From the NCBI GenBank assembly GCA_019059635.1, contig JAGVRJ010000004.1, forward strand, positions 1,798,001-1,862,000: a stretch of 64,000 bases of DNA. Direction: 5' to 3'. Made by a program: the position numbers and the translations under genes. Under the pieces are notes generated by a model. The model worked only from the letters and a program-made list of their open reading frames with translations. It was not told where the DNA came from and ran no database searches. Positions 6,001-24,313 of this stretch are shown here, piece after piece. The stretch is from Proales similis. Taxonomy: Eukaryota; Rotifera; Eurotatoria; Ploima; Proalidae. The first letter of the stretch is position 1; each line of letters begins with the position of its first letter.

Positions 6001-8651
6001 CAACAGACCGATCACGTCGCAAAAAGAAAGTATTGGCGAAGAGTAAGGACCATTGAAAATATTGAGCTCTCTGACGACGAGGGCCAGTCGGTTGAGTACT
6101 CAAAGAAATCCGAGTCCGATGGAACGGTGGCCAAGTGAGCTTCTCTTGCTCCTCCTCAAAGCCGGTCTTTTCACCATTCATTCTTTGTAAGGATTAAAAA
6201 TCTGTTCAACAAAGCCCAGAGCAGCGGTGTAGAGAATGAGTATAAAAGAGAGTCAAGAGATGATGCTCGAAATAAGAAGCAAGGCCGCAGTCTGCCACAT
6301 TGGACCATTTACATCAGCTGGTTTCGTAAGTTTCGTTCTCTCTCATGTTTGCTTTAAGTTGTCGATTAACTATCTGAATTACAGTTGTGGCCGTGAGCAT
6401 TTTGGTGCCGGCATTCTTTGTTATTCTTTACTCTATGCAGTGGGGCAAAGAAAGATCAGAAGCTTGGCTCGTCTCCATGATTCTCTCATTTTTCCAGTCC
6501 TTGTTCGTCGTTGATCCCATCAAGGTGTTTTTGATCACCGCTCTGATCACATGCATCTTGCGCAAGGTCGACGACGACTCCGATGATCTACTAGATTCGG
6601 GCGATCCACTTTACAATGCCATCGCCAACCAGGATGAGGAATATTTGCACAAGACGACGGCCAGTCTTAGCCAGGTTGACATTAGGACGATTATGGAGAA
6701 GAGGCGAACAAAGCTGACCACATTGAGGCCGGTCGACCCAGAAGAACTTGATCGCCAGCGTGAAGAGAGAATCAAGTACAAGAAGATGATGGAGATAATT
6801 AGAGAGGGCGTAAGCTACACGGCGTTCCTTCTGATTGTGCTCTTTCTGGCCTATCAGTCTCGTTCTGGCTTTGGATACGCAATTCACCAAGACATGTCCA
6901 ATACGTTTTTGAATGGAGAACTGCCATTGAATGAAATACAGACTCGCGACGATCTTTGGACCTACATCGAGACAGTGTTTATTCCGGGTCTATATGCATC
7001 CAACTGGTACAATGATCGACCGATTGGCTGGCGAGAACGATTAACGACCACGAATCGTTATGCCCTGAGAGTAGGACCGCCCCGTCTTCGTCAGCACAGG
7101 ATAAAAGAAGATACTTGTACGGTGTCGCCACAACTAAAGCACTTGATCGGACATTGCCGAGACAACTACAATTGGGTAGACGATGACACAAAAGACTATG
7201 GAATCAGCTGGCAGCCATTGACAAATGAGACCAAGCCCCGAATTTTGCCGGCAATGCGTCGCTCCAAGTACGATTGTAAAGATGCATGGTGCTATCAGAA
7301 CACAATTCAGACCAAGAGCACTCCGATTATGGCTCATTATACCACATACAAAGGCGGCGGCTACGTAGTCAGTTTGTCCAGGCGACGCGAACAAACCGAG
7401 CAGATCATTCAAGAGCTTAAAGTAGGCATTCGACTAACTGCTTCATCTTAAATCAAGTCTGAAAACTAGACACCCGGTAAAAAGGAGCAAAATTGGATCG
7501 ACGAGTTGACTCGAGCGGTTTTTCTCGAGTTCACTCTCTACATAGTGAACGTGAATCAATTTGTAACGAGCACGTTCGTTGTCGAGTATCTATCTACAGG
7601 CGGCGCGGTTACTTTCCAGAACATAAACGTAAGCGTTTGAATCAACGTTTGAATCAATGAGCTTCAAATTAAAATAACTGATGCGTAGGTTTGCCAACTT
7701 TACAATTACTTGGGCAGCGTGGGCATTTTGGTTCTTATATTCCAGATAATGTTCGTGATCTTCTTGCTTTATTTTATGGTGACCGAGGCGATGAAGATCA
7801 AGAAAGAGAAGAAAGCGTATTTCAAGCAGTTCTGGAACTTGAACGAGCTGTGCATCATTTCGTTTTCAATTGTGACCATCGCAATGTTTGCCATGCGCAC
7901 CATATTCACCGAGCTGGCAATGAAGGCTGTGCACGAGAGCGAGCTGGACGAGTTTGTCAATTTCTACACAATCGGCTCTTGGAATCAACTCTACACGGCC
8001 ATGTTCTCGTTGGTCGTGTTCTGCGCTTCGCTTAAATTTCTCAAGCTACTGCGTTTCAACAAGAAGATCGGAATGTTCGCGGCCACTCTGCGCTACGCCA
8101 GTCGTGATCTGCTCGGCTTTAGCTTCACGTTTTTCATCATCTTTTTCTCATTCACTCAGCTCGGTTTCCTCATATTCGGCAGCACCATGTATGGCTACAA
8201 AGACTTTATTTCTTCGTTGGCCAGTGTCTTCCGCTTCTCGCTTGGTCAGTTCAACTTGAAAGAGCTGCAGGAGGCTGACTACTGGATCGGATCCATATAC
8301 TTTGTGGTTTTCATATTTGTGGTCATATTTGGCCTAATGAGCATGTTCATTACCATTCTGACCGAAGCGTTCGAAAAAGTTAAAGAGGACTTGGCTAACC
8401 AGACCAACGAGACCGAAATTGTGGACTTTTTCTTCGAAACGGTCAAGAGCTTCCGTAAAAAGAGAAAGGGCACAGTTCATGACCAGAGCAAACGAGAACA
8501 AAACGAAGACGACTCAGACCCGAACGGCTCGAACGCTTCGCTCCAAGTCACAGTCAAGGAGTCGAATCTCAAGTCGAACTCGGCCCAGACCTGGTCTATT
8601 CAGCGCAGTATGGTCCGGTTCGATGAAAATGACTCATTGAGCTTTTACTAG
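1..8651 (+). CDS. Polycystin-1-like receptor/channel, 5' truncated
   Basis: Exons <1..2308, 2364..3361, 3428..4402, 4461..5449, 5485..5842, 5899..6134, 6192..6325, 6385..7421, 7485..7628 and 7689..8651 join to 2,713 residues in one frame; the 5' end lies outside the window. Visible in order: a cysteine-rich WSC-like module (nt ~200-400); PKD/REJ-type extracellular region with repeated GDYTVTV/GFYRITA-like strands; a GPS/GAIN end with an intact HLT cleavage site (nt ~4836-4945); TM1 (~5020-5090); a PLAT domain (~5150-5445); the polycystin signature CNDWLAVDKSDGQIDRLLP; then the multi-TM part with the TOP domain (~6880-7570) and a TRPP-type six-TM core (~7700-8400). Polycystin-1 proteins pair with PKD2-type subunits and act as mechanical or chemical sensors. 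The pore helix region reads SLGQFN. AATAAA signals lie at 8708 and 8716. The end of exon 2 is uncertain (weak donor, GTCCTC or GTCTTT); the other joins are well supported by phase. Confidence 0.93.
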
Positions 8652-18641: not shown

Positions 18642-19449
18642 TGAAGTTTGTTGAAGCAAAAAGAATTGAACAATATCTGACGGAGAGTTCGAAATAGATC
18701 GAATTTTACATACGAGGAGCCCTATTTACGTGAGCGCTCGCTTTCACTCTTTTTCTTGGCAAAAATTTGAGAAATGTGAGAGAGAGAGCGAGGTGCGCTG
18801 CTCGAGCTCAGTCGAGATCGGTGCGTGACGTGAGCTGACACGAGCCGAGTCGAGCATCGGTGGTGTTGGCGTGCAATCAAGTGGAACCAGGCAGTACTCT
18901 GCTCGAAAAGAAGAGTCTTGTTTTTTGGTAAATAACCGTGGCGGCGAAGAATAACGCGTTTGCGCACTCACGCGTTACTTGCTTGTTTTGCTCGGCATCT
19001 TCCATCACTAGATTCATTCGTGAGAAAATCATCATGCTCTTCTAGTGCTAGAAAAGCGCGCCAGACATCTAGAGAGCCATGTGGGAAGAAGTTTATTTTC
19101 TTTGATTTTTTTTTTTTGAAACTCTGCCCTGTTTGCAATCTTCTTTTTCATTTCATTCCTAACGATTGAGTTCGGTTTGGAAATGAAGAGGTTTCTTCTT
19201 CTCAAGCAGTCCTCAGTCTCACGAAAAAGTGGTCATATGAAGCCATTCTTTCCAGCTTCGGTTTGACATTCAATGAATGCTGAATACTATTCCTTGACAG
19301 ACTCACCTATGTTTGATTGAAGCAAGTTTTAAGGAATAATCAAACCAATCAAAAAATAAAAGATTTATCAACTTGGATCACATTAAATTTATTGAATTGA
19401 TAATAGAATCGATTGATTTAAAATAAATCTACAATTCTGTGTAGATAAA
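18642..19449. other. Intergenic spacer
   Basis: This 808-bp gap lies upstream of the proline-rich gene and downstream of the LRR-TRPA-like gene (both minus). It turns AT-rich towards 19400. TTTATT complements near 19360 and 19388 could serve as minus-strand poly(A) signals for the channel gene. No ORF here has support. Confidence 0.55.
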
Positions 19450-19484
19450 TTAAAATCTTCTAGTTTTTGAATCAAACGGTTTGT

Positions 19485-19772
19485 TTTTAACTTCAGAACT
19501 CGGTCTGGAGCCCGGTTCGGTTCTAACTTCAGAACTCGGTCTGGAGCCCGGTTCGGTTCTAACTTCAGAACTCGGTCTGGAGCCCGGTTCGGTTCTAACT
19601 TCAGAACTCGGTCTGGAGCCCGGTTTGTTTTTAACTTCAGAACTCGGTCTGGAGCCCGGTTCGGTTCTAACTTCAGAACTCGGTCTGGAGCCCGGTTTGT
19701 TTTTAACTTCAGAACTCGGTCTGGAGCCCGGTTCGGTTCTAACTTCAGAACTCGGTCTGGAGCCCTGTTCAA
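19485..19772. repeat. 36-bp minisatellite, 8 copies, coding
   Basis: Eight head-to-tail 36-bp units, with the shared CTTCAGAACTCGG block starting every 36 bp from 19491 to 19743. On the minus strand they encode GSRPSSEVRTEP (five copies) and GSRPSSEVKNKP (three copies) at the C-terminus of the LRR-TRPA-like protein. Apart from the RTE/KNK variation the copies look nearly identical at nucleotide level, so the array expanded or was homogenised recently. The plus strand is also open through the array, as expected for a repeat that is a multiple of three. Confidence 0.95.
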
Positions 19773-22095
19773 TTTTTTCCATTTTAATTTTCAACTCGGA
19801 AAGTATTTTAATATATTGCGAATGAAACTCATTCATTTTGGAATAGACGTCTTCCATAGGAGACCTGATTTGCTCACTTTTCAGGTAAAGCTTGTCGAAC
19901 CGCTCCTCAACTCGATGATGGTTTTCATGCATCAACTCTTCGACGTCTTTCCTCTCTTCTGTGTTCTTCTTTATTCGTTTGGTAGACTTGTCTAAAGAGA
20001 AACAACCGAAGTTACGAAGACAGCGCACAGCCCGAACTGTTGAGAAGAACAAGCTGATGTGATAAATCCTTAGTTGGCTCACTTTCATCTGCCCTTCTCT
20101 CAATACTTCTTTCACCTCTTCAATAGCCAAGCCAATGAACAGATTCAGAACGAACACTGGCACCATGAACACAAACACGGTGATTGTCAAAAAATTGACA
20201 AAACTGAATAGAGAAAACTGACTGTCTTCCGCATCGATTTCAATATTTCCCAGCAGCATTGAAAGCATTTGAACTATGTCGGGGAAAACGTAAAGCGATT
20301 GGACCAGAATTTGTTTTTGTATCGATTGGTAAATAGACTGCATCCTTAGAGCGAAAAAGAAGCCAGTCAGCATTAATAGAACGATTGGCAAGAGCCGAAT
20401 TGATTTGACTAGAATTTTCTCGAACGCGTACACATATAAGCCGAATACGCCGGCTTTGTCTGACTTGATCAATAAAAGGATGAAGCCTGCTGGTAAAGTA
20501 AACGAGTAGAGAATGAGCTTTGCATCAAACCATGGACACCAGACGGACAAGAATACGAGCAAAAAGTAACACAATTCGAACAAATTTTTGAACGAATGAA
20601 AATATTTGCATCGAAGTCTGTACATCTGGAGACCTTCAACTGCAATGTATACGGTTGAAACAATAGTCATCCAGATGCCAGGCACTATCCAGAAAGCGAT
20701 GTTTTCATTTACGAAATGCTCAAGTGTCATGAGGCCATACAGTAGCAACGAAATAAACAAAATCACGAGGTTGAAGTAATACCACAGATAACATTTAGTC
20801 CAATGATGATCGATAAAATCTTGCACCAGTTCATCAAGAATGATGGAGCGCTGTCCACTTTCAGCAATTAGGTAAATATTAAGGGTTCCCTGTTTTTCGG
20901 TGTCCTCTACACCAAGAAGAGGATCGAACCAGTTATCTTCACTGCTTCGACAGAATTGAAGAATATGCTTGATTGTCTGCCACTTTTGATCTTCGTTCAA
21001 TTTGAACTCATTATTTTGGCAAAGCACTTTGCGGCAAAGACTGTGGAGAAATCTTATTTTAGGGTCATTTTTCTCCTTTGTGATGAGGGCATTGGATCGC
21101 ATTTCAAGAACGCATTTGAATTTGCGAACCTCGCCCTTTTTCAGACAGGCCTCCAAGTACTCTTTAACATTTTCAACAATGATTTCATCACTTTCTAATT
21201 CGAGTAAAAACTTAAGAATTTCGATCGATGGTCTTTCTTTAATGCAATCTATAATAGTTTGTTTGCTCGGCTTCGGACGGATTTCAGGAGATTTTCTTGA
21301 GCTGAAACGGCCAATAAATTCCAATAAAAGCTGATCTGGAATTTTCATGTTCCGAAAAGTGTCGTCAATTTTCATACTCAGCGGATCTCTATCTTTTTTC
21401 CTTTCTTCATACGCTTTGAATTTTTCATTTAAATTAATCCGGTTCTGTTTATTTTGATCAGTGCTTGTTGAGTTATTGGTGGTAGGCGAAGAATTTTCCA
21501 TTTGAACATCATCGGTTTTTTCAGATGAACTATTATTTGAATCAGTTCCACTATCTGTTATTTTAAAACACTTGAAACAATTCCACCTCTTTCGATCATG
21601 TGATTTATTTTCATTCACATCACTACAACTCGCATCATTCGTTTTGCTATTGCCACATTGTTCAGCGTAAATAAAGAATAAAAAAGCGCTTTGCTCGTTC
21701 TCTTCGTTTTTCTCTTTTTCTTTCTCTTTTTCTTTCTCTTTTTCTTTGTCTTGATCATTAATTACGGCGTCATATAAATCAGAAACGTGAAAATCTGGTT
21801 CTATGGTCAAATAAATCTTAAGCTTTGAATTTTGTTCAAGTAACTTTTTTCCCATATAATAAAGAGGATTATGGTCCAGTTTAATATATAACTCGGGCTC
21901 CTTATTCGAATTTTGACTTGTTTCTGAGATAACCAGTTCGAACCTTTTGATCCTGTTTTGCTTTAGATCAATAAATTCTAAGGTGTTAAGGTTGTCAAAG
22001 ATCAATTTTGGAAGCTCAGTCAAAAGGTTGCGAGACAAGTCAATCTCTTGAACGCTTTTAAGTCCTTCAAAAGTTCTAAAGTCGAGCTTCTCGAG

Positions 22096-22098
22096 TTA
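22096..22098 (-). other. In-frame TAA stop inside an LRR
   Basis: The codon after INLSNN is TAA, and LEKLDFRTF follows in the same frame. No GT-AG pair around it could remove it, and no frameshift is needed on either side. The LRR spacing is exactly kept if the codon counts as one residue. Confidence 0.9.
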
Positions 22099-22968
22099 AT
22101 TGTTAGATAAATTTATTCGTTTTAGTTTCTCCATGCCAGAAACGAGTTGGTCACTGATGGAAAATAGCCGGTTGAACGAGATATCAATTACTTCCAAACT
22201 TTGCTTGACCGGTTTAAATAGGTCTGGTGGCAGTTGCTCGATATCATTTTTGGACAAGTTAAGTTTCTTGAGGTTAAGTTTTTTTAAGCTTCCAAAAAGT
22301 GACTTTTCAATGTGGTGGAGCTCGTTATTGGACAAATCAAGTATTTCTAATTTTTTCAGGTCTTTAAATACATCCTGTCCCAAATTCGACAAATGGTTAC
22401 TCGACAAGTCAAGTTCGACGAGATTTTTAAGATGACCAAAAGGGCTCTCCAATTTGCTGAGTTGATTGTGCGACAAGTTCAATGTTTGAATGGAACTTTC
22501 CTTCGGGAAATAGTTGGCATCTATATCTCTGATGATGTTGTGATCCAGAAGGAGTTTCTTGAGCTTTTGCAATTTCGAAAACGGCCCGTCTATTTTATTG
22601 GCTTCGTCTTTTCTAAATTTAAAGCGGTTATTCGAAAAGTTTATTGTCTCTAGATTCGGGTTATTGTCGAAAGCTTCATCGTAAATTGTGTGAATCGCAT
22701 TTCCAGAAATGTCAAGGTTCTTCAACTTCTCCAGGTTGGTTAACTCGTTCTTATTGATTACTTTGAGTAGGTGCTCCTTCAGAATAACTGTTTCGAAATC
22801 ATTTTTGCCCCAACATGATTCTGTACCGGAGCCTATCGTGTTTATTTTGTAAATTTTTTCTTCATATTCGAAAGGTGACTCGATTATGAGTTTTTTGCCA
22901 TCTTTGTATTTCTCTACGATTTCTTTAGTTAACCCAGCTTGCTGGAAATCATTTTTCTGTTGAGTCAT

Positions 22969-23373: not shown

Positions 23374-24126
23374 TTAAGCATGAGCTTCATTTTCGTCCTC
23401 GGACGAAGAAATTTCCAAATCTTGATCCACACCGAGCCAGTCTTTTAAAGCAGTGTTGCTTAAATCTTTGGCTTTCTTGGCCGGCTCGCATTCGGTCGAA
23501 TGTGTGGCTGGCTGGGACGAATCGTCAGTTGAGGGTGAGTTTGTCGATTGGTTGTCTCCAGTGGTTGAGGATGTCTTGGCCTCGTCTTCTTGACTCAACT
23601 TTCTCTTTTTTATCTTGAGCGCACTGCTCACAGCCTGATCAACGTCTTGGGCGATCTTTTCTCGCTGGCTATCATAGTTGGAGTCGACAAACAGATGCTT
23701 GGTGTTTTCAAGTCTCTCGCGTTTAAGACGTCGCCTCTCTTGCTTCTCCTCTCTTCGCTTCTTTTCTTCTTCGGCCGTTTGACTTTGCTTTTCTAAAAAC
23801 TCTTTTAGTCGCTTTTCGTTGTTCACATTGCGTATTCGGCGGCCAGACAAGTCCCGACAAGCATCGCGATTTGTTGATTTGGTGATTTGCTTGCCGAACG
23901 ATCGAAGCAGCGAACCGAAACCGCCTTTGCCGCCCAGCACTTTGGGGCATAGGAACACGCATTCGTCCGTTGCTAAAATAGACGCTTGATTAAGCTGGAC
24001 GCCTCTTTTAGATACGAGCGTATACTCGGATGATCTGAGTCCATACTGACTTTGCACTGCCTGTTGCAAGTCGTAGAACACAACCCGGTCGAGCGAGGGA
24101 AAAATTTCGCCGAGACAAACCTCCAT
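23374..24126 (-). CDS. SDE2: SDE2 homologue (genome stability and splicing factor)
   Basis: One exon, 250 residues. The N-terminal ~77 residues form the ubiquitin-like segment. It ends in [18 protein letters not shown], where known SDE2 proteins are cut after the Gly-Gly to expose a Lys N-terminus. [20 protein letters not shown] follows, the most conserved block of the family. After that come Lys/Arg/Glu-rich helices ([15 protein letters not shown]) typical of spliceosome-associated SDE2, and an acidic C-terminus (SSSEDENEA). In yeast and human the cleaved form works in splicing of selected introns, and in human also in replication-stress control. The human protein is longer at the C-terminus, where it has a SAP domain; I see none here. 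Confidence 0.93.
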
Positions 24127-24313
24127 TTCTGACCGTCTAATTGCTATTCGTCATGAAATCCACTTGAACATAAACTAAAACGAATGGTGCGCGCATAAGA
24201 CAAAGTTCATCCACGCAATCTCTTGGGCATTGCCTCTAAATTTCTTTGATTTCTTTTTAAGTTTTTTGGATGCTTTCTGTTTTATTATCAAGACATCAAA
24301 GGAAACAAAAATT

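Follow-up and report, generated by a model that had tools for sequence, protein, structure and literature searches.

The ankyrin array gives the TRPA channels their name, and the locus described here raises the question of whether, in the rotifer Proales similis, leucine-rich repeats (LRRs) have come to stand in its place on a TRPA-type pore. Our answer is that P. similis probably possesses a family of four cation channel genes, derived from TRPA, whose ankyrin array has been replaced by a cytosolic LRR solenoid. At the level of the sequence, this reading draws on the order of LRRs, linker and core in one frame, the TRPA-type character of the core, the grouping of the four genes in a single clade and the lack of anything hydrophobic before the first membrane helix (S1).

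The window, that is, the whole stretch of 64,000 nucleotides that was analysed and to which positions refer unless another locus is named, carries the gene on its minus strand (22968-19450). Starting from an ATG at 22968, LRRs, linker and channel core follow one another in a single frame, which contains a single internal stop in its 1172 codons; read in each of the other five frames, the same stretch has 42, 48, 65, 86 and 117 stops. Apart from the internal stop, a TAA, 1171 codons are open, 881 of them downstream of it. The N-terminal LRR part (22099..22968, minus) comprises 290 codons from the ATG and is followed, at codon 291 and within an LRR, by the in-frame TAA (22096..22098, minus), beyond which the final LRRs continue in an unchanged frame (21874..22095, minus). 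The linker between the LRRs and S1 (20881..21873, minus; its borders were chosen by us) includes a Lys/Glu-rich stretch with a 12-bp repeat at 21698-21752. The TRPA-type core (20026..20880, minus) consists of a pre-S1 motif, S1-S6 and a post-S6 helix, with the pore segment MLSMLLGNIEID at 20233..20268 and the S6 segment VFVLNLFIGLAIEEVKEV at 20104..20157, both on the minus strand. Near the C-terminus lies an in-frame tandem repeat of 36 bp in 8.2 copies (19477..19770, minus), whose opposite strand also carries long open frames, and the terminal stop codon (19450..19452, minus) is followed by an AATAAA on the same strand, starting at 19393. An earlier, sequence-only reading of this DNA had described a single frame apart from one stop, and its coordinates, frame and motifs all proved correct; the pore, S6 and linker strings that it quoted are likewise all present in the window ORF. 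The upstream neighbour (23374-24150, minus) is a homologue of the splicing regulator SDE2 (SDE2 E 7e-27).

The repeats themselves are readily recognized. A motif scan of the window gene gave 12 hits in one run with a spacing of 23-30 aa, nine of which precede the TAA, and the motif count over the whole chain is 18, compared with a mean of 4.7 and a maximum of 11 in shuffled sequences. The Pfam family LRR_8 matches on both sides of the stop, with E 9.3e-38 before it and E 3.1e-7 just after it (residues 2-49 of the next ORF), and the array has the tandem 20-30 aa LxxLxLxxNxL repeats by which LRR proteins are defined. The roughly eleven N-terminal LRRs that had been claimed are thus borne out by a run of 12 motif hits and both Pfam matches.

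The design is not confined to the window. In the P. similis assembly that we searched (32,716,893 bases on 15 contigs, about 6 kb below the 32,722,929 bp, 15 contigs and GC 45.51 given for the published assembly in PMC11954553), the window channel ORF found itself and three further cores of 31-34% identity, with LRRs in the same frames. The paralog frames are open from stop to stop over 1897, 1370 and 1595 aa and all include LRR matches: from the ATG, the C7 paralog has 1882 aa (LRR_8 E 2e-206; 38 LRR motif hits, one of them out of register), the C5a paralog 1347 aa (LRR_8 E 3e-154; 19 hits) and the C5b paralog 1591 aa (LRR_8 E 1.5e-59; 28 hits). The order from LRR array through linker to TRPA-type core is the same in all four genes and uninterrupted in three, and since these three intact paralogs lie elsewhere in the genome, we regard the joined design as real. 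It might be objected that an LRR gene and a channel gene are separate neighbours that share a frame by chance, given that the TAA parts most of the window LRRs from the channel and that an AATAAA at 22117 lies just upstream of it. Against this stand the uninterrupted ORFs of the paralogs (1347-1882 aa), with their conserved linker residues, and the position of the TAA inside an LRR, with LRRs resuming downstream. Two separate genes, which had been named beforehand as the outcome that would speak against the fusion, are therefore very improbable; for the family this reading is strongly disfavoured, for the window copy less clearly so.

The same genome also contains four ankyrin-TRPA genes, clustered on C2, which have the expected ankyrin arrays and a related core. 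Genome searches at E up to 10, in which only first-pass candidates are scored, returned 10 rows for the C7 core and 8 for the C5b core; both sets come from the same eight genes only, namely the four LRR and the four ankyrin-TRPA genes. One P. similis ankyrin-TRPA gene shares 44 and 46% identity with two Brachionus calyciflorus proteins. Two neighbouring members of the ankyrin cluster (L035 420-3725 and 5264-8851) share 177 consecutive identical residues while being diverged elsewhere, which looks like recent gene conversion. A further locus (C9:819000-826500) contains exon pieces with up to 45% identity to starfish TRPA1 and is probably an ordinary TRPA1 gene split into exons.

To which channel family the LRR-bearing cores belong was addressed by profile comparison. 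A profile of the LRR cores matched the cores of the animal's own ankyrin-TRPAs with a probability of 99.9% (E 7e-31, 293 columns), and against the PDB it ranked fly TRPA1 (7ykr) first at 2.8e-19, followed by other TRPA1 entries including the human protein (4.9e-10 to 2.6e-8) and, after these, by TRPV1 (8.5e-7), TRPV3 (6.5e-5) and polycystin-2 (0.021). Structure 6wj5 is among the entries labelled fly or human here. The profile of the own ankyrin-TRPAs likewise placed TRPA1 first. By both the PDB profiles and the own-genome matches, TRPA is therefore the TRP family that the core resembles most, in agreement with the TRPA-like core that the earlier reading had recognized.

Protein-level Pfam searches behaved differently for the two halves of the chain. 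An HMM search had been proposed as a check, and while LRR_8 was strong and Ank was absent, Ion_trans was missed in all four proteins, that is, in the window ORF at E up to 10 and in the three paralogs at E up to 1. Because of this, the channel call is based on the profile, tree and paralog evidence instead; genome-wide, one of the four LRR cores was recovered among the Ion_trans matches listed (C5:2307129-2307827, 33.9 bits). Other Ion_trans matches were seen along the way, including one elsewhere in the window (7722-8390, plus strand; 56.4 bits, open frame of 320 aa) and a channel gene array at about 2.0-2.15 Mb on C4, where ORFs of about 450-510 aa are often 9-10 kb apart.

A tree of 40 cores, comprising the eight from P. 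similis and 32 of 33 database proteins (P0022 was left out by a length rule), unites the four LRR cores in a single clade with a support of 100/100, and this clade joins the rotifer-like ankyrin-TRPAs to the exclusion of two outgroup TRPAs (100/99). The stem of the LRR clade is very long (6.45), and the program warned that long branches meet there and that joins may be false; a placement of the LRR clade outside the rotifer-like ankyrin clade is not rejected (AU p 0.24). Of the phylogeny that had been suggested as a check, the grouping with TRPAs was thus obtained, whereas the comparison with other families rests on the profiles, the tree leaving out TRPV, TRPC and TRPN sequences. Taken together, a TRPA-type core is supported, and by parsimony we infer that the ankyrin array came first and that the LRR array is the derived state.

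Individual core residues agree with this assignment. The pre-S1 Trp, the filter glycine, the S6 Asn and the post-S6 motif are conserved in all four LRR channels, and the residue following the filter glycine varies, being N in C5a, E in C7, D in C5b and N in the window. In all four, Trp is absent from the 29 residues starting at the S6 Asn, as expected of a TRPA channel; TRPV, TRPC and TRPM share a Trp after S6, and TRPA1 differs there from other Group I TRPs (PMC9242649). The C-terminal helices are predicted to be long, with low to moderate confidence. TRPA channels have a C-terminal coiled coil, and they carry a Ca2+-permeable cation current under chemical or heat gating.

The structure prediction that had been called for gave a divided result. 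In an AlphaFold model of the last 1200 residues of C5a, the LRR solenoid lies mostly above pLDDT 90, and the best Foldseek matches of the model are LRR proteins. The membrane parts are of moderate to low confidence, the helical linker is poorly predicted and about 200 residues are at very low confidence; the mean pLDDT of the model is 57.9. The model of the window channel part is poor (mean pLDDT 44.1); its top three structural matches are fly and human TRPA1, with TRPV close behind, at E 1.9e-4 and weaker and with TM-scores to TRPA1 of about 0.2. These models are supportive and, because both alignments include ankyrin-TRPA rows, they are not independent of TRPA.

The side of the membrane on which the LRRs reside follows from hydropathy. 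In all four LRR channels the N-terminus is not hydrophobic, nothing hydrophobic precedes S1, and no signal-peptide-like start was seen, as had been stated for the window gene. For this reason the LRRs should be cytosolic, in the position in which TRPA carries its ankyrins, and the proposed exchange of the one array for the other agrees with the topology of all four chains.

A further suggestion, namely that the helical linker between LRRs and S1 is a degenerate remnant of the ankyrin array, is not supported. As cut here, the four linkers are 331-474 aa long and weakly alike, with 21-25% identity to that of C5a and 12 invariant columns. Their profile matched the ankyrin parts with a probability of 0.1% and gave no ankyrin among PDB entries, with a single chance-level match, and Pfam found no ankyrin in the linker. 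A model built from 92 ankyrin repeats, with which the linkers were compared alongside 500 shuffles each, gave scores within the shuffle range: 16 of 500 shuffles equalled the real linker for the window, 53 of 500 for C7 and 162 of 500 for C5b, and the C5a linker had no match. The best score, 0.1 bits in the window, coincides with the very segment that had been named as the remnant. As a control, the model was applied to the ankyrin parts of the four P. similis ankyrin-TRPAs, where it matched 40 stretches; this test is not independent, since the model was built from the same sequences. With profile, Pfam and repeat model all without signal, the idea was set aside.

Several known systems invite comparison. 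With the TRPA family (fly 7ykr, human 6pqo and the rotifer ankyrin-TRPAs) the LRR channels share a core that best matches the TRPA profile, a related pre-S1 segment, a post-S6 helix without Trp and, by topology, an N-terminal cytosolic solenoid; unlike TRPA, they combine an LRR array with the linker described above, and no ankyrin repeats were detected, Pfam Ank matching none of the four. We therefore treat them as TRPA-derived and do not file them as TRPA1. The LRRC8 volume-regulated anion channels also carry cytoplasmic LRRs on a channel. LRRC8 proteins form hexamers with an anion pore and have four membrane helices and C-terminal LRRs, whereas in the P. similis proteins the LRRs are N-terminal and the core matches TRPA. 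Polycystin-1, finally, is a single chain that unites LRRs with a membrane region resembling that of TRP channels. Its LRRs are few, extracellular and preceded by a signal peptide, and it has GAIN, REJ and PLAT parts and 11 membrane helices; the LRR channels show neither a polycystin-type Pfam family nor a signal-peptide-like start.

Beyond P. similis, no relative was found in the protein database, viral contigs and prokaryotic genomes searched; as no other rotifer genome was among them, absence from other rotifers is weakly tested. A protein search with residues 490-1340 of P0002 gave no match at E up to 0.001 among 7989 candidates scored, and with the P0001 core (1430-1735), 1159 scored candidates yielded nothing at E up to 0.01. 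The sensitivity of these searches for divergent cores is low, as ankyrin-TRPAs in the same database were also missed. Viral contigs and prokaryotic genomes were scanned once each, with 101 and 89 pattern matches, respectively, and no relative was confirmed. The earlier statement that no named TRP family has this architecture agrees with searches of the open-licence literature for LRR plus TRP, in which no LRR-TRP of the same design was seen among the papers listed. One candidate report (PMC13207855) was rejected, as its available text mentions LRRs for Hydra surface receptors only and not for TRPA1.

The state of the window copy itself is a separate matter. There is a slightly better than even chance that this member of the family is a pseudogene, in which the TAA would remove the channel; what could still be made is no more than an LRR protein of 290 aa, or a channel without LRRs that starts at a later ATG. 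On this reading only the window copy lacks a channel role, and the family itself is real. The TAA at 22098-22096 is in frame, and splicing offers little escape: among GT-AG pairs within 400 nt on either side and of a length that is a multiple of 3, 180 could remove the TAA with the frame open. Eight consensus donor hexamers were looked for and occur in none of these pairs, and the seven pairs that were flagged owe this solely to their preserving the 24-aa register. An intron hiding the TAA was thus discarded for want of a good candidate. The end branch of the window core is the longest of the four (3.98 vs 1.32, 1.54 and 2.05), and the window copy keeps 48 of the 80 core sites at which the other three agree, compared with 48 of 57, 48 of 59 and 48 of 65 for the others. 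Third-position GC is 0.40 in the window channel part and 0.49-0.64 in the whole paralogs. Divergence, low third-position GC and the TAA together suggest relaxed constraint and a probable recent loss. On the other side, the frame remains open over all codons besides the TAA, most of them beyond it, and three key residues, the glycine of the pore, the Trp before S1 and the Asn of S6, have been retained. The AATAAA after the terminal stop also points this way, weakly, because the motif occurs seven times within the window gene as well; it lies within about 100 nt past the terminal stop in all four genes and is also internal in three. The window copy, the most divergent of the four, is most likely a recently inactivated member of the family, and its full protein may not be made. 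Alternatively it may be intact, in which case the TAA, which is known from one assembly, would be a mistake of that assembly or a null allele that is polymorphic.

For the family as a whole, a working channel can be pictured by descent from TRPA. The subunits would form tetramers like TRPA1, with four LRR arms hanging into the cytosol; a protein or other ligand would bind the arm, or a tether would put tension on it, and the signal would travel by way of the helical linker and then the pre-S1 segment to the helix that follows S6, whereupon the gate would open a Ca2+-permeable pore. The range of 12-38 motif hits and the varying residue after the filter glycine suggest that the copies may differ in the stimuli to which they respond and in their ion selectivity. 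That same variability, with N in two of the four copies, and the very long stem of the LRR clade in the core tree would also suit a non-conducting or scaffold subunit, in which the LRRs dock to a complex and the core holds the protein in the membrane or acts on other TRPA subunits as a modulator; as the filter glycine, S6 and the post-S6 motif are conserved in all four, we consider this unlikely. More specifically, the TRPA-derived LRR channels could act as one-protein intracellular receptors, in which the arm, on sensing microbial or damage molecules in the cytosol or else some chemical or protein cue, directly opens a Ca2+ channel. This is a speculative proposal by analogy, and we hold it to be rather doubtful. 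In plants, LRR immune receptors form Ca2+ channels, and the proposed receptors would follow the same logic in an animal. Within P. similis, an ORF on C7 at about 231 kb (L023, 850-3249) combines LRRs, without an apparent signal peptide, with a TIR domain (TIR_2 E 1e-16); it runs off the end of the locus and is therefore incomplete as read, and by this union LRRs are in use on an apparently cytosolic signalling protein of the animal.

Were the receptor proposal true, the LRR arm would be a new TRP sensory module and the ankyrin arm exchangeable. Some evidence ties the TRPA ankyrin array to temperature sensing (PMC11526382). A natural TRPA core with an unrelated solenoid in place of its ankyrins would be a ready test of whether gating works with any solenoid, and of which senses go or arise with the arm. 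Control of a channel by LRRs would then have been reached twice, by this route and by that of the unrelated LRRC8, whose cytoplasmic LRR domains can be targeted to modulate the channel (PMC8440666).

As to where the LRR module came from, a cluster of LRR ORFs at 385-416 kb on C1, many of them about 740-800 aa long, is a possible source. The one ORF of this cluster that was read (L019, 397-2724, minus) has a signal-peptide-like start and matches LRR families only.
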